From NCBI GenBank assembly GCA_039944855.1, contig JBDUXZ010000016.1, positions 62,001 through 126,000 on the forward strand: a stretch of DNA of 64,000 nt, in the 5' to 3' direction. Below the pieces are notes generated by a model that made no database searches, had not been told where the DNA came from, and saw nothing but the letters and a program-made list of their open reading frames with translations. The position numbers and the translations under genes are program-made. Below are positions 10,981-22,353 of the stretch, in pieces (the first letter of the stretch is position 1; every line of letters starts with the position of its first letter). This DNA is from Rhodothermales bacterium. GTDB taxonomy: Bacteria; Bacteroidota; Rhodothermia; Rhodothermales; JANQRZ01.

Positions 10981-11475
10981 ATGCGCGTTACCGCTTTCTT
11001 TGCCCTCCTCGTTCTGTGCACCGGGCTCGCCACGACGGCGCAGGCCCAATCCGATGCCCAAGACGTCACGATCGTCGTGCCCTCCGTCAACGCGTTCGAA
11101 ATCCCGACCAACGCCGTGACGATCACGGTGGTAGCCCCCGCCGCCGGTCAGCAGACGGGGACCGGCAGCAATGCCAGCACGGGGTACAACCTCACGACGA
11201 ACAACTCGAGCATGAAGATCACCGGGCAACTCGACGCCCTGTACCCCACCGGGATCTCGCTCCAAGTCCTCCTCGGGACGCCGACCGCTTCGAGCGGCGG
11301 CTCGGCAGGCACGACGACGCAGACGACCCTCTCGACGTCCGCCCAGGACCTCATCACCGGCATCAGCCGGGCGTATGGCTCGAACGTCACGATCGGCTAC
11401 ACCGCCAGCGCTACGGCCGGGGCCGTCCCGAACGCCGGGGTGACGCAGACGGTGACCTATACCCTCACCAACTGA
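10981..11475 (+). CDS. Secreted beta-rich putative fibre subunit
   Basis: The 164-residue protein has a clear signal peptide (MRVTAFFALLVLCTGLATTA, then QAQ). The mature part is Ser/Thr/Gly-rich and cysteine-free, with alternating strands, and ends TVTYTLTN. The pattern resembles spore-coat-U/DUF4402-type secreted subunits of chaperone-usher systems, but no family signature is certain. The neighbouring gene's product ends in a similar TVIYTLIDQ. A GTG at 10948 gives a longer frame, but the ATG at 10981 starts the signal peptide. A hairpin with a short T-run follows the gene. Confidence 0.65.
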   Translation: MRVTAFFALLVLCTGLATTAQAQSDAQDVTIVVPSVNAFEIPTNAVTITVVAPAAGQQTGTGSNASTGYNLTTNNSSMKITGQLDALYPTGISLQVLLGTPTASSGGSAGTTTQTTLSTSAQDLITGISRAYGSNVTIGYTASATAGAVPNAGVTQTVTYTLTN

Positions 11476-11488
11476 GTGTGATGGCGGG

Positions 11489-11524
11489 GCTCGCGGGATG
11501 GTCCGCGAGCGCCGCTCCCTTTTT
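11489..11524 (+). terminator. Terminator-like hairpin after first subunit gene
   Basis: Stem GCTCGCGG / CCGCGAGC (11489-11496, 11503-11510) lies 14 bases after the stop codon and is followed, after a short spacer, by TTTTT (11520-11524). It lies inside the operon, so it may partly terminate transcription and give excess of the first subunit. Confidence 0.5.
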
Positions 11525-11548
11525 GTCGTCGCCGCCAACGACGCAGTC

Positions 11549-12013
11549 ATGGTTGACCTTAAAGGCCCGCCGCGGCCTTCGTTCTTCACCGCCGCGGCCC
11601 TTCTCCTCCTCGTCCTCGCTCCCGCTCCGCACGCGCAGTCTATGCTGCTGATCGGCGGGCCGATCGAGCTCTACGTCGACGGGTCGACGATGGAGGCGGG
11701 CCAGTCCGTCGACTCCGATGCGACGACGCTGATCTTCTGGGAAGGACGCCAGCGGCCGAAAAAAATCACGGTCGAGACGAGTGCGCCGGGACAGGTGTAC
11801 GGGCTGACCACGGAACTCGTCTTCGTCCTCGGGGAGGGGGTGCCGCAGGGCACGGTGGACCTCGTGGACGGGATGTTCCCCCAGGACTACGTGCGCAACA
11901 TCAGGAATAAGAAGGAAGGGTTCGGCCTCATCCGGTACACGGCGCGGGTCGCGCCAGGCCAGGGGGCCGGCGAAGACGTCCACACCGTCATCTACACGCT
12001 GATCGACCAATGA
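11549..12013 (+). CDS. Second secreted putative subunit of the fibre-like cluster
   Basis: The 154-residue protein begins MVDLKGPPRPSFFTAAALLL and has a signal peptide ending APHAQ. The mature part is predicted beta-rich and ends VHTVIYTLIDQ, matching the C-terminal pattern of the preceding gene's product. The two may be related subunits. I do not recognise the family. The ATG at 11549 sits closest to the signal peptide; one at 11498 would overlap the upstream hairpin. Its stop overlaps the next ATG in ATGA, so it is translationally coupled to the chaperone-like gene. Confidence 0.6.
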   Translation: MVDLKGPPRPSFFTAAALLLLVLAPAPHAQSMLLIGGPIELYVDGSTMEAGQSVDSDATTLIFWEGRQRPKKITVETSAPGQVYGLTTELVFVLGEGVPQGTVDLVDGMFPQDYVRNIRNKKEGFGLIRYTARVAPGQGAGEDVHTVIYTLIDQ

Positions 12014-12840
12014 CCGCGACGCTCCGCCCCATCGCGCTGACCGCTTTCGCCCTCGCGCTCGCGTGGTCCGCCCTCCCCGCCGCTGCCCAAGTGGTGGTGA
12101 GGAGCCCGCTCTCCGACGACCGGACCGTGCCGCCGGGCGAGGTCTACGAGGGGACGATCGTCGTGGCGAATACCACGGACGAGGTCCAACAGGCCAAGGT
12201 CTACCAGACCGACTACTCCTTCCATGCCGACGGGAGCAACCGCTACGACGCGCCGGGCTCCAGCCCGCGTTCGAACGCAGGGTGGATCGAGTTCGGCCCG
12301 CGCGCCGTGACGCTCGCGCCCGGCGAGACGATCCAGGTCCAGTACCGCGTGACGGTCCCGGCGGAGGCGGACGGTCAGGCCCCGGCCGGGACGTACTGGA
12401 GCATGCTGATGGTGGAGGGCATCCCGCGCAACTCCGCCGAGTCCACGCTCGGCGACGACACGACACCGCAGTACGGCGTGCGGCAGGTGACGCGCTACGG
12501 CGTGCAGATCGCCACGCACCTCCTCGGGAGCGAGCGGCCCACGATCGGGTTCCAGCAGGTCCGGCTCCAGACGAGCGAGAGCGGCGGGCGCGTGCTGGAG
12601 GTCGACCTCGAAAACCAGGGCGACCTCTTCACCCGGTCCACGCTGTGGGTCGAGCTGTACGCGCAGGACGGGACGGCGCAGGGCCGCCGCGACGGCACCT
12701 CGACGCGGATCTACCCCGGCACGTCCGTCCGCCAGCAGATCGACCTCTCCGACCTCACGCCGGGGCAGTACGAAGCGCTCATCGTCGTGGACTCGGGCGA
12801 GGAGAACGTCGTCGGCGCTCAGTACACCCTCGAGCTGTAG
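12010..12840 (+). CDS. Periplasmic chaperone-like protein (two Ig-like domains)
   Basis: The 276-residue exported protein (signal ALALAWSALPAAAQ) appears to have two immunoglobulin-like domains. The first (about 28-140) includes VPPGEVYEGTIVVANTTDE and WIEFGPRAVTLAPGETIQVQ, then GTYWSMLMVEG. The second (about 165-276) ends LTPGQYEALIVVDSGEENVV and QYTLEL. Domain 1 resembles the edge-strand segment of pilus chaperones and WxL-associated DUF916 proteins. Placed between the subunits and the barrel protein, it could hold subunits in the periplasm. Function is inferred from size, export and context. Confidence 0.6.
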   Translation: MTATLRPIALTAFALALAWSALPAAAQVVVRSPLSDDRTVPPGEVYEGTIVVANTTDEVQQAKVYQTDYSFHADGSNRYDAPGSSPRSNAGWIEFGPRAVTLAPGETIQVQYRVTVPAEADGQAPAGTYWSMLMVEGIPRNSAESTLGDDTTPQYGVRQVTRYGVQIATHLLGSERPTIGFQQVRLQTSESGGRVLEVDLENQGDLFTRSTLWVELYAQDGTAQGRRDGTSTRIYPGTSVRQQIDLSDLTPGQYEALIVVDSGEENVVGAQYTLEL

Positions 12841-12846
12841 CGGCCG

Positions 12847-15573
12847 ATGCAGGGAGTCCCCCGCCATAGCGCCCTGCTCCTCCCGCTAGCTTGCCGAATC
12901 GGTCTCGTCGCCCTGCTCGTGGGAGTCAGCCCGCCCGCCCGAGCGGACGGCGACACCGAGCGTCCGGTCCGCATCGAGCCGGTGGGCGCGGGCGCGGCCG
13001 AGGCGTCGCCGGGGGAGATCATATCGGCGGCGTTCCTGCTGACGAACCCCTCGCCCGAGCGACGCGCGGTGCGGATGAACGTGGAGTTGCCGGCGGGCTG
13101 GTCGCTGCTGTTCCAGGCCCCGGTGACGGCGCTGAAGCCGAACGAGCGGGTGACCCGGTTGCTGAGCTTCCGCGTGCCGAGCCAAACGGCACCGGGGCGC
13201 TACGAGGTCCGCCTGCGGGTGACGTCGGATGAGGAGGCCTTTCAACCGGGCGAGGGGGCGATGACGGTCCACGTGCGAGCGACGCGCGCCGTCGAGATCA
13301 CGGCGCTCGGCGCTCCATCGGTCATGCCGGCCGGCGGAGCCTACGACACGCGATTCTTCGTGACGAACGGGGGCAACACGCGGGTGCACCTCCGGCTGGA
13401 AGCGCGGGCGCAGGGGGACGCCCTCGAGATGGACGAGCCCTCGATCGTACTCGACGCAGGCGCCTCGCAGATCGTGACCGTGCGCGCCGAGATCCCGAGC
13501 GAGGGACGCAGCCGACGGCACCGTGTCCACCTCGTCGCCTTCGTCGGGGACGAAGAGGTGGCCGAGGTCGGGGTGAGCACCGAGGTCATGCCGTCGGGAC
13601 GGAGGCCGGAAAGCGGCGGCGGGTATCCCGTCGAAGCGACCCTGCTGCTGGGGGGGGAGCGCGGCGGGATCGGCCCGCAGCTCCAGATCGTGTCGGGGCT
13701 GCCGAAGGACCCAGAACTGGCCCGCGTCGACTTCCTGCTCCGCACGCCGAGCGCGCAGCCGTCGTCGTCCTACGTCATGCGCGACGAGTACCGGGTTCGG
13801 TACGCGAGCGAACGCCTCGGCCTCCGCTTCGGCGACAACGTCTACGCCCTCTCGGCACTGACGGAGTCGGGGCGCTACGGCTTCGGCGGCGGGGCTGAGT
13901 ACCGGACGCCGAGCCGAACAGTCGGCGCGTACTACCAGCAGAGCCGGTTACCGGGTGTCGACGAAGCACAGGCGGGGCTGCACGTCGAGCAGGCCGTGGC
14001 CGAGGGGAGCCACGTCGGGCTCAACCTGCTGAGCGCTGGGGGCTTTCGCGGTGGCGACGTGGCCTCAGTGGAGGGCCGGTACGTGCCGTACGTCAATGCG
14101 GAGGTGGAGGCGGAGGTCGGCGTGAGCACGGGTCGGGGGCGGGCCGTCGCGCTTCGGTTCGGCGGCGGCGATCCGCGCTTCCGCTACGAGACGCGCTTCG
14201 TCCGCTCCACGCCGGAATACGTCGGCACGCTTCGCGGGACGGCGCTGCACTCCGTCGCCGCGTCGGGGCAGCCGCTCGGCTGGCTCCAGGTCGAGGGGGC
14301 GTGGCGCGACCAGCGCCGGCAGTATCGCGCGTTCGACGGCGCGGCGTCGTCTGAGCGCGGCGAGGCCTACGGCCAACTCGGCGCTCGGCTCCTCGGTCGG
14401 CTCTTCGACCGGCATACGTCCCTGTTCGTCTCGGCGCACCGACGGAAGCTCGATGTCCGCTCGCCCAGCCAGCGCACCGAGCAGATGGAGCGCGGCCTCC
14501 AGGTCCGCGCGGGCTTCGACCCGCACCGCCTCCTCACCCTGCGCGGCGGGTTCGAAGCGGGGCAGACCCGGCTCAGCGAGCAGCATGAGGCGAGGCCGTA
14601 CTACCGGCTCAGCGCACAGACGCGCGTGAACGTCGAGGCATACGTCGCCAGCCTCGGCGTGGAGCACGTGCGCGGGGTGGAGATTTACACGGCGCGCGAG
14701 CAGCGGCGGTGGCAGCTGTCGACCCACATCGGCGCGCGCGTCGGCCGGACCCGCATCGGATCGGAGGTGTATTTCAACCTCGACCAGAGCCGGGGGGACT
14801 CCCGGTTCGTCGTGGCGCAGTTCCGGGCCGATCACGAGTTCGAGATCGGGCACAGGCTATCGATCTACAGCCGGTTTAGCGAAGCGGGGTCGAGGAGCGG
14901 AATCGTGCCGCAGTACGCGTTCAGCTACACCGTCCCTCTCGGCCTGCCCATAGGACGGGCCTCTCGACGGGCGCCCATCGTCGGGGAAGTGTTTGATGCG
15001 GCGACGAGAGCGCCGGTGGAGGGGGCGCTCCTCTACCTCGGCGACGCCGTGGCCGTGACCGACGCGCGCGGCGCCTTCGAACTCCCCGCGCCGGAGCCCG
15101 GCACCCACTACCTCCGCGTCGATCCTGCCAGCATCCGGTTCGACCGCACGACGGTACATGAGATGCCGATGGCGATCGACGTAGGGGAGGAGGGAGGCGG
15201 GATTCCGCTGCTGATCCCCGTCGTCGAGAGCGGCTCGATCGAGGGGCAGGTCGTGGCGCGGACGCCGGAGCGCGCGGCCTCCGACAGCGTGTCCGAGGTG
15301 CAGCTCGCGAACATGGTGCTCGAAGCATCCGACGGGAACGGCCGCTACCGGACGATCACGGACCGCGAGGGACGGTTCCTCTTCACGGATCTCCGGCCTG
15401 GCCCGTGGCGCGTCCGCGTCGTCCACGCCCAACTCCCCGAGCGGCATTATGTAGAGCGGGAGGAGGTGGAAGTCCTCGTGGTTTCGGGACGACGGTCGAC
15501 GGCCGTGTTCGAGGTACGGGAGCGGCAGCGCACGATCGATGTGATCCGCTCCGGCGTGCTCCGCGCGAACTGA
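12847..15573 (+). CDS. Outer-membrane usher-like barrel protein with NEW3-type Ig and carboxypeptidase-regulatory-like domains
   Basis: The 908-residue exported protein begins 6 bases after the chaperone-like gene. Residues about 40-245 form two NEW3/Ig-like repeats (LPAGWSLLFQAPVTALKPNE). Residues about 260-700 consist of alternating amphipathic strands with many aromatic ends, as in a large outer-membrane beta-barrel. Residues about 705-905 contain two carboxypeptidase-regulatory-like modules (IVGEVFDAATRAPVEGALLY, then IEGQVV with REGRFLFTDLRPGPWRVRVV). The overall layout recalls fimbrial ushers (~850 residues), but I see no canonical usher motif. It may be an alternative usher or surface scaffold. 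Confidence 0.6.
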   Translation: MQGVPRHSALLLPLACRIGLVALLVGVSPPARADGDTERPVRIEPVGAGAAEASPGEIISAAFLLTNPSPERRAVRMNVELPAGWSLLFQAPVTALKPNERVTRLLSFRVPSQTAPGRYEVRLRVTSDEEAFQPGEGAMTVHVRATRAVEITALGAPSVMPAGGAYDTRFFVTNGGNTRVHLRLEARAQGDALEMDEPSIVLDAGASQIVTVRAEIPSEGRSRRHRVHLVAFVGDEEVAEVGVSTEVMPSGRRPESGGGYPVEATLLLGGERGGIGPQLQIVSGLPKDPELARVDFLLRTPSAQPSSSYVMRDEYRVRYASERLGLRFGDNVYALSALTESGRYGFGGGAEYRTPSRTVGAYYQQSRLPGVDEAQAGLHVEQAVAEGSHVGLNLLSAGGFRGGDVASVEGRYVPYVNAEVEAEVGVSTGRGRAVALRFGGGDPRFRYETRFVRSTPEYVGTLRGTALHSVAASGQPLGWLQVEGAWRDQRRQYRAFDGAASSERGEAYGQLGARLLGRLFDRHTSLFVSAHRRKLDVRSPSQRTEQMERGLQVRAGFDPHRLLTLRGGFEAGQTRLSEQHEARPYYRLSAQTRVNVEAYVASLGVEHVRGVEIYTAREQRRWQLSTHIGARVGRTRIGSEVYFNLDQSRGDSRFVVAQFRADHEFEIGHRLSIYSRFSEAGSRSGIVPQYAFSYTVPLGLPIGRASRRAPIVGEVFDAATRAPVEGALLYLGDAVAVTDARGAFELPAPEPGTHYLRVDPASIRFDRTTVHEMPMAIDVGEEGGGIPLLIPVVESGSIEGQVVARTPERAASDSVSEVQLANMVLEASDGNGRYRTITDREGRFLFTDLRPGPWRVRVVHAQLPERHYVEREEVEVLVVSGRRSTAVFEVRERQRTIDVIRSGVLRAN

Positions 15574-19132: not shown

Positions 19133-21655
19133 CTACCGCATCAGCAGGTAGCTCAGCTTGACGAGGAACACGTTCTCCGGGTAGAGCCGGAACGCGTCGC
19201 CGAGCTGCGTGAATGTTGGCGTGGCGAAGGGAGAGGCAGTGCCGTCGTCGAAGAAGCGGACGGCGTTGTCCTCGCCAAGGCGGGTGTGGCTCCACACGAC
19301 GAAGAGGGTCGATCCCGGCCGGTACTCCCACCGGAGGACGGCGTTCGAGAGGAGCGACTCGACGGCGAAGTCGCGGCGCTTGGGGTAGGCGGCGAGCGGG
19401 CGGAGGTCGTCGGGGGCGGCGAGGAGCTGGAAGTCGCGGTAGCGGCCGCGCGCGGCGAAGAGCTGCGAGTAGAGCTGGAGCGAGAGGTTCGGCCGGAACG
19501 TGACGCTCGTGCGGAGGGCGAGGTCGAGCGTGCGCGTGTCGCGGGCGCCGAAGACGGGCAGATAGTATTGGCCGAGCACCCCGCCGTGCGTCGGGATGCC
19601 GTCGAAAAGCGGGTTGAGCGTCGCGTCGCCGAACGGAAGGAAGCCACGGACCTCGCCCGGCGGGCCGGTGACGTCCCCGACGCCGAGGCCGCTTTCGGTG
19701 CGGAGGAACGATTCGTTCGCCGCCCACGCGACGAATCCGTCGTTCGAGGCGTACTCCGCGTTGAGCGAGAGGTCGAGCCGGTCGCTCGCGTTCCAGTCCA
19801 CCTCAATCTCGGCCCGCCACCCGAGCCCGCCCTGCTCCTGCCACGAGAGGCCTGCCTCCTGCTCGAGCTGGAAGCGGCGGCGCGAGTCGGTCGCGTACCC
19901 CGCGTAGACGCCGCCCGAACGCCGGTTGCGGAGGAGCCCGAGCCCGCGCGTCTCCCGCACGTCGAACCCGCCGAGCCCGCCGATCTGCCCGCCCACCTCG
20001 ACTTCGCTGAACGACTTTAGCTCGGCATTCGCGGAGCCGGACGCATTGAAGCCGCGGTTGGTGAGGTCGGTGTAGCGCCACGTCTGATCGCCGAAGAGGC
20101 TGAGCCGGACGCGGCGGAACGGCCCGAGCGGCTCGCCGCCGTTGAGGTAGGTCCCGCCGCCGACGCCGAGACGGACGAGGTCGTTCTCGCGGAGGCGGCC
20201 GAGGTCGTTCGCCCGGAAGTCGTCGGAGTAGACGCGGAGCCCGGAGCCCCACGTCGTGTTGCCGCGGATCTTGTCGAGGCCGGTGTAGACGGCGAAGCCG
20301 GTCTCGCTCGGGACCGTGCTTGCCGAGGTGGCCGCGTCGCGGTAGCTGAGGGTGGCTGCGCCGTCCCACCGATACGTCCCGTTGCCGACGCGGACGTCCC
20401 AATCGCCCCCGCCGAGGAGCGCCCGCGCCCCACGGAGGGCTTGGTCGGAGCCGAGCTCGTCCGTGTACGTCAGCCCGAGGCCGACGGCGGAGCGCGCGCC
20501 GAATTCCTGCTTCGCGCGGGCGACGCCGAAGAACCGGGCGGGGGAGAAGGCGTCGCCGGTGAGCGCGGCGAGGCCGCCGCCGGAGAGGCCGCCCGACGTT
20601 CGGCCGGTCAGCTTGGCCGCGCCGATGATCGGGTCCGCCGCGCCGATCCGCCGGGTGTAGAGCAAGCGTCCGTCGCGCCCGCTGTCGATCGTGTAATCGA
20701 AGATCGCGGTGCCTTCGAGGAAGAACGGGCGGCGCTCAGAGAAGAACGTCTCGAACGTCGAGAGGTTGAGCTCGGCCGGGTCGGCGTCGACCTGGCCGAA
20801 GTCCGGGTTGATGGTGGCGTCGAGGATGAGGTTTGAGGCGAGGCCGACTTTGAGGTCAGCCCCGAGGTCGGCGCCGAGCGTGGCGTCGCCGGTGCCGGGC
20901 CGGTCGGCGCGCTCGAACGTGCGGGCGCGCGAGAGGGTGTAGGGGCGGAGCTGGAGCGTGCGGCGCGGGGCGATCCCGCGGAGCCCTTCGAGCCGGCCGG
21001 CGATAAAGCCCGTGCCCTCCTCACCGCGCGTGACGGGCTGCCAGAACACCTCTTCGCTCCGGCGCGGGATCGTCCGTTGGAACTGGATGCCCCACGTTTG
21101 CTCCGACGCCTGCGAGAACCGGAGCATCGAGTACGGGATCGCGAGCTCGGCGACCCACCCCTCAGGCGTGACGCGGACGGCCGAGTCCCACACGGCGTCC
21201 CACGAGTCGTCCGAACTCGTCTCGGTCTGGACGGCGTCGATCTGCACGCCGGCCGCCGTGACGGCAAAGCGATACGCCGACTTCTGGTCGAGGTAGCCGT
21301 CGATCCCGACGACGAAGAGGGCCGCGCCGCCGTCGGTGTCGCGGCGGCTGAGCGGGCGGCGAATCCGCTCCGGCTCCGGGTCCGCCATCACCGCGCCGAC
21401 GTAGAGCGCGTTCGGGCCGTAGAGCACGCGGACCGTGGTGCCGAACGAGGCGGGCGCGCCCTCGTTCGGCTCGAACTGGACGAAGTCCGTCGCCGTGTCC
21501 GCGCCGTCCCACGCCGGCTCGTCGAGCCGTCCGTCGATGGTGAGCGCGCCCGTCGTGGGCGCGGCGGTGAGGGTGCGCGGCTCCGTATCGGTGGAGGGAG
21601 CAGGTGTGGGCAGCGAGGCCGCGACGAGGGCGGCGAGAAGCAGGGAAAACGGCAT
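19133..21655 (-). CDS. DUF5916 outer-membrane protein with N-terminal CBM9-like domain
   Basis: The 840-residue exported protein has a signal peptide (MPFSLLLAALVAASLPTPA) and a CBM9-like sugar-binding-fold domain (about 35-215: IDGRLDEPAWDGADTATDFV, WVAELAIPYSMLRF). A long DUF5916 region follows, with the hallmark LNLSTFETFFSERRPFFLEG (about 325-344), then barrel-like strands up to a terminal VFLVKLSYLLMR. Related proteins are common in Bacteroidota and Gemmatimonadota and are probably outer-membrane proteins of unknown substrate. A TATCTTTC element (minus strand, 21659-21666) is only 3 bases from the ATG, so the mRNA is probably leaderless. Confidence 0.85.
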   Translation of the reverse strand: MPFSLLLAALVAASLPTPAPSTDTEPRTLTAAPTTGALTIDGRLDEPAWDGADTATDFVQFEPNEGAPASFGTTVRVLYGPNALYVGAVMADPEPERIRRPLSRRDTDGGAALFVVGIDGYLDQKSAYRFAVTAAGVQIDAVQTETSSDDSWDAVWDSAVRVTPEGWVAELAIPYSMLRFSQASEQTWGIQFQRTIPRRSEEVFWQPVTRGEEGTGFIAGRLEGLRGIAPRRTLQLRPYTLSRARTFERADRPGTGDATLGADLGADLKVGLASNLILDATINPDFGQVDADPAELNLSTFETFFSERRPFFLEGTAIFDYTIDSGRDGRLLYTRRIGAADPIIGAAKLTGRTSGGLSGGGLAALTGDAFSPARFFGVARAKQEFGARSAVGLGLTYTDELGSDQALRGARALLGGGDWDVRVGNGTYRWDGAATLSYRDAATSASTVPSETGFAVYTGLDKIRGNTTWGSGLRVYSDDFRANDLGRLRENDLVRLGVGGGTYLNGGEPLGPFRRVRLSLFGDQTWRYTDLTNRGFNASGSANAELKSFSEVEVGGQIGGLGGFDVRETRGLGLLRNRRSGGVYAGYATDSRRRFQLEQEAGLSWQEQGGLGWRAEIEVDWNASDRLDLSLNAEYASNDGFVAWAANESFLRTESGLGVGDVTGPPGEVRGFLPFGDATLNPLFDGIPTHGGVLGQYYLPVFGARDTRTLDLALRTSVTFRPNLSLQLYSQLFAARGRYRDFQLLAAPDDLRPLAAYPKRRDFAVESLLSNAVLRWEYRPGSTLFVVWSHTRLGEDNAVRFFDDGTASPFATPTFTQLGDAFRLYPENVFLVKLSYLLMR

Positions 21656-21658
21656 CGC

Positions 21659-21666
21659 GAAAGATA
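21659..21666 (-). promoter_or_regulatory. Promoter -7 element of DUF5916 gene (leaderless)
   Basis: On the minus strand TATCTTTC ends 3 bases before the ATG. Transcription from it would start at or near the initiation codon. A plus-strand TACCTTCG (21699-21706) may serve the divergent yigZ-like gene. Confidence 0.4.
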
Positions 21667-21726
21667 CCGGCGGGGGCACCCGACGGCCGGGCGGCGGTAC
21701 CTTCGGCGTCGTGAAATCGCCGTAGA

Positions 21727-22353
21727 ATGATCCCGCCCGATCCCGATACCTTCCGCACGATCGGCCGCCCCGCGCTCGCCGAGCCGCCAAAAACGAAGGG
21801 CTCGCGCTTCATCGGCGAGGCCTTCCCGGCCGCGACCGAAGCCGAGGCCGAAGCCCACCTCGACGCCGTCCGCAAGCGCGAGCACGCGGCGACGCACTGG
21901 TGCTGGGCGTGGCGGCTCGGGCGCGAGGGCGACACCTTCCGCTCGGGTGACGACGGCGAGCCGAGCGGGAGCGCCGGCGCCCCGATCCTCCGGCAGATCG
22001 ACGCGCGCGAGCTGACGAATACGGTCGTCGTGGTGACGCGGTACTACGGCGGGACGAAGCTCGGCGTCGGCGGGCTCGTCCGCGCCTACGGCGAGGCGGC
22101 CTCCGCCGTGCTCGACGCGGCGCGCATCGTCGAGCGCGTGATCCGCGTGGCCGTCCGCCTTCGCTTCGCCTACGACGACACCTCGCCCGCGATGCACACC
22201 GTCAGCCGGTTCGACGCCGAGATCGCCGAGCAGCATTACACCGACGACACGGAACTCGTCGTCCGTGTCCGCCGCTCCGAGGCCGAGGCGCTGCAGACCG
22301 CGTTCGTCGACGCGCTCGGCGGGCGCGGGACGGTGACGCTCGACGGCTCATGA
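21727..22353 (+). CDS. YigZ/IMPACT family protein
   Basis: The 208-residue protein has the UPF0029 N-terminal domain with DDGEPSGSAGAPIL (about 77-90) and VVVVTRYYGGTKLGVGGLVR (about 99-118). A second small ferredoxin-like domain follows. Family members are linked to translation control (eukaryotic IMPACT) and are of uncertain biochemical role in bacteria. It is divergently oriented from the DUF5916 gene. Confidence 0.92.
   Translation: MIPPDPDTFRTIGRPALAEPPKTKGSRFIGEAFPAATEAEAEAHLDAVRKREHAATHWCWAWRLGREGDTFRSGDDGEPSGSAGAPILRQIDARELTNTVVVVTRYYGGTKLGVGGLVRAYGEAASAVLDAARIVERVIRVAVRLRFAYDDTSPAMHTVSRFDAEIAEQHYTDDTELVVRVRRSEAEALQTAFVDALGGRGTVTLDGS

Follow-up and report, generated by a model that had tools for sequence, protein, structure and literature searches.

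Does a compact set of four genes for exported proteins in a Rhodothermales bacterium encode a machine for the assembly of surface fibres? The genes occupy positions 10981-15573 of the window (the whole 64,000-nucleotide stretch of DNA analysed). A preliminary description, made from the sequence, had read them as following the logic of subunit, chaperone and usher. No earlier description of the operon was found in the open-licence literature. We analysed the four proteins, their relatives and their gene neighbourhoods, and compared them with the systems they most resemble.

Gene organisation of the cassette

Gene A (10981-11475, + strand, 164 aa), defined by its reading frame, homologues and family alignment, encodes an exported subunit that we propose to be the polymerising unit of a fibre. 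It is followed by gene B (11549-12013, +, 154 aa), encoding a second exported subunit, homologous to A and without the N-terminal extension of the latter, which is proposed to be a tip subunit. Gene C (12010-12840, +, 276 aa) encodes a soluble periplasmic protein of two Ig domains and putative chaperone function, while gene D (12847-15573, +, 908 aa) encodes an outer-membrane protein, proposed from its domains and predicted barrel to be an usher-like assembly platform. The tight packing of the genes noted in the preliminary description was recovered in full, with all four frames present, an ATGA overlap between B and C (12010-12013) and a gap of 6 bases between C and D (12841-12846). The start of B is ambiguous (11498 or 11549); 11549 was adopted in agreement with the signal peptide and with the homologues. 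A, B, C and D each have a plausible Sec signal peptide at the N-terminus. Neither a consensus promoter at A nor a terminator after D was found, to which little weight is given as this group of organisms uses other promoter signals.

Searches of Pfam, NCBIfam and PHROGs gave no match above the curated cut-off for A, B or C of the window, and D exceeded the cut-offs only for the Pfam families CarboxypepD_reg and NEW3. The earlier remark that no classical PapD or FimD motif can be seen is thus right at the Pfam level, with no usher, PapD or pilin family at cut-off. Elsewhere in the window, positions 19133-21790 of the minus strand encode a protein of outer-membrane type (DUF5916), which has an N-terminal CBM9-like domain and is unrelated to the cassette.

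Protein C has a predicted pilus-chaperone fold and is related to WxLIP

The structure of C was predicted with AlphaFold2 on a B-C fusion from a relative locus (L055), in which the stop codon was read through as a linker. C is modelled at a pLDDT of about 95-98 within this fusion, the pTM of the whole being only 0.59, too low for the model to count as a confident complex of subunit and chaperone. The top PDB match of the C fold in Foldseek is WxLIP (E=2e-12). The remaining top 50 matches are mostly pilus chaperones (CfaA, CsuC, DraB, FimC, Caf1M, SafB, CupB2 and PapD), with E of 1e-9 to 1e-7 and TM of about 0.45-0.58 when normalised by the chaperones, and these cover all three known chaperone classes. 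Hence, the predicted fold is of the two-Ig pilus-chaperone type, in line with the two-Ig periplasmic protein claimed in the preliminary description.

A 46-row profile of C matched Enterococcus faecium WxLIP1 (PDB 9i25 and 9i1y) with E=5e-4 across both Ig domains (positions 92-260), and no other credible PDB chain. HHalign of C with E. coli-type chaperones gave 72% over 164 columns and aligned strands of C with the region of chaperone strands F1 and G1. This value is to be read cautiously, as with all HHalign values for Ig proteins, because C also matches the N-terminal Ig domains of D at 86%. The candidate donor (G1) strand of C, QVTRYGVQIATHL (12484-12522, +), contains the invariant residues R162 and Q166 and aligns in HHalign onto the G1 region of FimC-type chaperones, suggesting a role in strand donation.

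Only sub-threshold Ig families are seen in the C of the window, in which neither WxLIP family (PF06030, PF11797) reaches its curated cut-off. Among 46 C homologues, PF06030 is found in 3 and PF11797 in 2 (best E 4e-4 and 6e-4), and a single one matches PF00345 (PapD_N), with E=0.007 only. In the C homologues, no C-terminal transmembrane helix follows the last Ig strand, which is where the proteins end. WxLIP has been predicted to complete the beta-sandwich of its WxL partner by strand insertion, in a report that does not mention chaperones (PMC10599100). Judged by sequence, WxLIP is a nearer relative of C than any pilus chaperone, which makes the operon a plausible link between pilus chaperones and the WxL system; this connection is not drawn in the open-licence literature found.

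Protein D is predicted to form a barrel with flanking periplasmic domains

D was modelled with AlphaFold2 as part of the C-D fusion of the window (1187 aa, 34 sequences; overall pLDDT 82.7). Two N-terminal Ig/NEW3 domains (12970-13590, +; residues about 42-248), recognised by Pfam and in the model, precede a predicted beta-barrel of about 26 strands (13630-14937, +; residues about 262-697). Two carboxypeptidase-regulatory-like (transthyretin-like) domains follow at the C-terminus (14977-15561, +), as indicated by Pfam, homologues and model. The CarboxypepD_reg match has E=2e-13, and NEW3 is above the Pfam cut-off. The barrel strands are long, with pLDDT of about 85-97, and the model shows no domain inserted in the barrel and hence no classical plug. 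The modular architecture anticipated for D (NEW3/Ig repeats, a probable barrel and carboxypeptidase-regulatory-like modules) was therefore observed, and the view of D as an outer-membrane barrel, on which the preliminary description had staked its reading, agrees with a barrel-type model of high local confidence.

The best outer-membrane barrel match of D in Foldseek is FimD (E down to 1e-11), followed by LptD (8e-9) and PapC (3e-8), FimD and PapC being the best usher matches in the PDB. Against FimD, the whole fused C-D model reaches TM-scores of only 0.20 and 0.31. Low values are to be expected where domains joined by flexible linkers are superposed as a single chain, but they also leave the barrel match unproven. 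The top Foldseek matches of the C-D model were ciliary Ig arrays, which were dismissed as a trivial effect of tandem Ig domains. HHalign was run against a set of E. coli K-12 operons with TonB-receptor, LptD and BamA controls. The D profile scored 59-85% with ushers, modestly above the TonB-receptor control (34%), and no signal was obtained with single-sequence ushers. PF00577 was listed for none of 36 D homologues. Three D homologues end in a SPOR domain and one in LysM; these are probably peptidoglycan anchors on the periplasmic side, which places the C-terminal end of D in the periplasm.

Subunits A and B differ in an N-terminal extension

A terminates in ...TVTYTLTN and B in ...TVIYTLIDQ, the two ends confirming the shared C-terminal T-V-x-Y-T-L pattern of the preliminary description. 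The C-terminal strand of A (TVTYTLTN, 11449-11472, +), in which T159 and T161 are invariant in 39 homologues, is proposed to be the last strand of an incomplete Ig-like fold. Its equivalent in B is TVIYTL (11984-12001, +). The two families are homologous (HHalign of their profiles 99.8%, E=3e-29), the similarity extending from the first strand of the core to the C-terminus, and a search of the window's genome with the A profile detects B at E=2e-9. By sequence, no credible PDB match was obtained for the A or B profiles, and Pfam detects nothing in A or B of the window. A WxL domain (PF13731) was found in none of 39 A-type and 27 B-type members, nor in the window's genome.

In the established view of the chaperone-usher pathway, tip subunits donate no N-terminal strand. 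A-type proteins carry ~15 additional residues after the signal peptide, with alternating hydrophobic positions and a consensus of roughly xHTVTVxVxAINEI, and B-type proteins are without them. The median number of residues before the core is 28 in A-type and 13 in B-type proteins (length test, p about 1e-11). The proposed N-terminal donor strand of A is QDVTIVVPSVNAFEI (11059-11103, +; residues about 27-41), absent from B. An alternating N-terminal segment of this kind serves as the donor strand in known chaperone-usher pili, as demonstrated for CsuA/B (PMC4654587). Because A possesses and B lacks the alternating extension, as with the donor strands of known pili, we infer from these sequences that A would polymerise and that B would sit at the tip.

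The operon is conserved across diderm bacteria

To place the cassette among other genomes, the C alignment was scanned against 84,980 species genomes, in which 204 relatives were confirmed. Among the best 80 of these 204, chosen by C alone, D lies directly downstream of C in 79. Where more than 1.5 kb is available upstream of C (69 loci), that stretch contains at least one subunit gene in 68 cases. The arrangement is far from a chance one. Within the same best 80, the subunit models give 168 matches upstream, compared with 9 that lie downstream of D and 7 on the opposite strand. Individual loci contain one to eight subunit genes, as expected if these are interchangeable polymer units. The distances among C and among D proteins are correlated (r=0.74), the maximum of 2000 shuffles being 0.17. 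The co-occurrence of the four genes elsewhere, which the preliminary description had left to a neighbourhood survey, is thus found in many phyla.

The 80 loci fall into about 15 phylum-level diderm groups, many of them represented by MAGs for which single labels may be wrong. These are Rhodothermota/Bacteroidota, Ignavibacteriota, Desulfobacterota, Gammaproteobacteria, Spirochaetota, Planctomycetota, Verrucomicrobiota and Acidobacteriota/Aminicenantes, together with Armatimonadota, Gemmatimonadota, KSB1, Zixibacteria, Krumholzibacteriota, Synergistota and Halanaerobiales/Clostridia. Six doubtful carriers were tested (three with Clostridia/Orenia labels and one each from Synergistota, Armatimonadota and Treponema; Acetomicrobium is among them). 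Omp85-like proteins are encoded in all six, and in five of them the match exceeds the curated cut-off, which is consistent with a requirement for an outer membrane. A PF00577 usher was detected neither in the window's genome nor in six other carriers, with the E. coli control positive.

Within 60 genomes of the same order, relatives of D occur in 21 and of C in 17, nearly always side by side and with A and B relatives just upstream of the C-D pairs. The operon is patchy in this sample, D being found in neither other genome of the same family. Beside the operon of some Rhodothermales are large secreted proteins with a type IX sorting tail (Por_Secre_tail), one above the cut-off (L035:1608-4685) and one just below (L042:9036-13190).

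A proposed model for donor-strand fibre assembly

C and D are neighbours, and in terms of function each is independently best matched by a chaperone-usher component, C by the pilus-chaperone fold and D by an usher among barrels. Taking together the fold of C, the barrel match of D, the size and strands of the subunits and the gene order, we consider it likely that the cassette is a chaperone/usher-like donor-strand fibre system. It lies outside the known chaperone-usher pathway by the defining families of the latter, and probably works like one. The subunit-chaperone-usher logic of the preliminary description is supported by the C fold, D barrel and gene order, with fibre assembly still the inferred function. 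Its reading of the architecture stands, whereas it overlooked both the spread of the operon and the kinship of C to the Gram-positive WxLIP.

The model starts from what was computed, namely the genes, their homology, operon conservation, the fold class of C, the barrel architecture of D and the A/B extension difference. To these it would add that subunits are joined by donor-strand exchange in a set order, pass through D and form a fibre, and that this fibre serves adhesion. Sec would export A and B across the inner membrane, as incomplete Ig-like subunits with the TVxYTL strand at their end. C would bind each subunit and lend it a strand, probably the conserved RYGVQIATH, before handing it to D, the barrel with N-terminal Ig and C-terminal transthyretin-like domains in the periplasm. 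Once at D, an incoming A may use its N-terminal strand to displace the C strand from the preceding subunit. A would in this way polymerise into a surface fibre, with B, which has no N-terminal strand, placed first and hence at the tip.

In comparison with the classical, archaic and alternative chaperone-usher systems (Fim, Csu, CFA/I), the cassette has the same order of subunit, chaperone and usher, matching the E. coli fim, sfm, elf and yra operons. Shared too, as predicted for the cassette, are a two-Ig fold of the periplasmic chaperone and a large barrel in the outer membrane that bears periplasmic domains at both its N- and C-terminus. The subunits end in a conserved strand and mostly bear an N-terminal extension, missing in the proposed tip subunit. 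In contrast to these systems, no protein of the cassette reaches the cut-off for PF00577, PF00345 or a pilin family, and the operon is spread over many phyla, in which the members tested have no PF00577 usher. Furthermore, D has about 26 predicted strands compared to 24 in ushers, with no inserted plug seen; its N-terminal domains are NEW3/Ig instead of the usher N-terminal fold, and its C-terminal domains are carboxypeptidase-regulatory-like. The Type V (FimA/Mfa1) fimbriae of Bacteroidales are surface fibres of the wider Bacteroidetes built by strand complementation, as proposed for the cassette. However, A and B have no fimbrillin Pfam match and no apparent lipoprotein-type signal, and the cassette contains a putative chaperone and a predicted usher-like barrel.

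The cassette could simply be a known chaperone-usher operon, of the classical, archaic or alternative class, that has diverged too far for Pfam to detect, which would account for the shared order and fold classes as well as the HHalign values of 72% to chaperones and 59-85% to ushers. We consider this very improbable, given that PF00577 is listed for none of the 36 D members and absent from the six carrier genomes tested, that PapD_N touches 1 of 46 C members (E=0.007), that C has a closer relative in WxLIP than in any pilus chaperone, and that the strand count and flanking domains of the barrel differ. D might instead be a secretion pore or porin for A and B as separate exported proteins, C acting as an ordinary holding chaperone in the absence of donor-strand polymerisation. 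The barrel is indeed large and without an inserted plug, and the overall usher similarity of D is weak, yet the fold of C matches donor-strand chaperones specifically and a conserved, strand-like N-terminal extension is present in A-type proteins and absent from B, rendering this explanation improbable.

The kinship of C to WxLIP, both its clearest sequence relative (E=5e-4) and its top structural match, raises a further option. C could permanently cap or anchor A and B by strand insertion, as predicted for WxLIP and WxL, with D holding the complex in the outer membrane as a diderm WxL-like coat or adhesin that does not polymerise. The Gram-positive WxL/WxLIP (DUF916-DUF3324) clusters resemble the cassette in that C is related to WxLIP by sequence, in both domains, and by fold, and in that a two-Ig protein is encoded with small secreted beta-rich proteins. 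C however lacks the C-terminal transmembrane helix of WxLIP, no WxL domain is detectable in A, B or the genome, D has no counterpart among the WxL clusters, which contain no usher-like barrel, and the host of the cassette has an outer membrane. One to eight subunit genes per C and the A/B extension difference also fit polymerisation better. We therefore regard a static WxL-like complex as unlikely.

In our reading, the proposed donor-strand fibre system represents a fourth chaperone/usher-like kind, which is divergent in sequence and connects the pilus chaperones with the WxL system. It is possible, on a wider and more tentative view that we would rate at somewhat below an even chance, that it constitutes a fourth major chaperone/usher pathway across most diderm phyla. 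Pilus chaperones and WxLIP would then derive from one strand-donating two-Ig ancestor, with the operon as the intermediate and the WxL clusters as a remnant without outer membrane and usher. If the fibre model is right, an unannotated fibre-assembly machine is present in many bacteria of phyla not known for chaperone-usher pili, including the cultured carriers Orenia metallireducens, Thiohalocapsa marina, Thiococcus pfennigii and Salinivenus, and surface-adhesion biology gains a new protein family to name. Gram-negative pilus chaperones and Gram-positive WxL surface proteins would be joined via a common strand-donation mechanism, the evolution of which becomes a testable question.

Additional subunit-like genes

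A second A-type subunit gene (E=2e-31) is located in the same genome on contig 5 (148291-148779), away from any C or D, and possibly encodes an extra fibre subunit served by the operon. At loci outside Bacteroidota, another subunit type (GSWSETIDANDL... to YSTTVTYTVVDI) is the last before C, replacing B (for example L089:6479-6970, L103:6201-6692 and L105:6474-6965). The two examples tested have no Pfam match, and the end of this type resembles the GxYxxTVxVxY end of archaic pilins. Downstream of D, a further small secreted protein with a final strand such as YVTVTR is encoded at L031 (reverse strand), L032, L039, L042 (reverse strand) and L048, and is perhaps an additional or terminating subunit.
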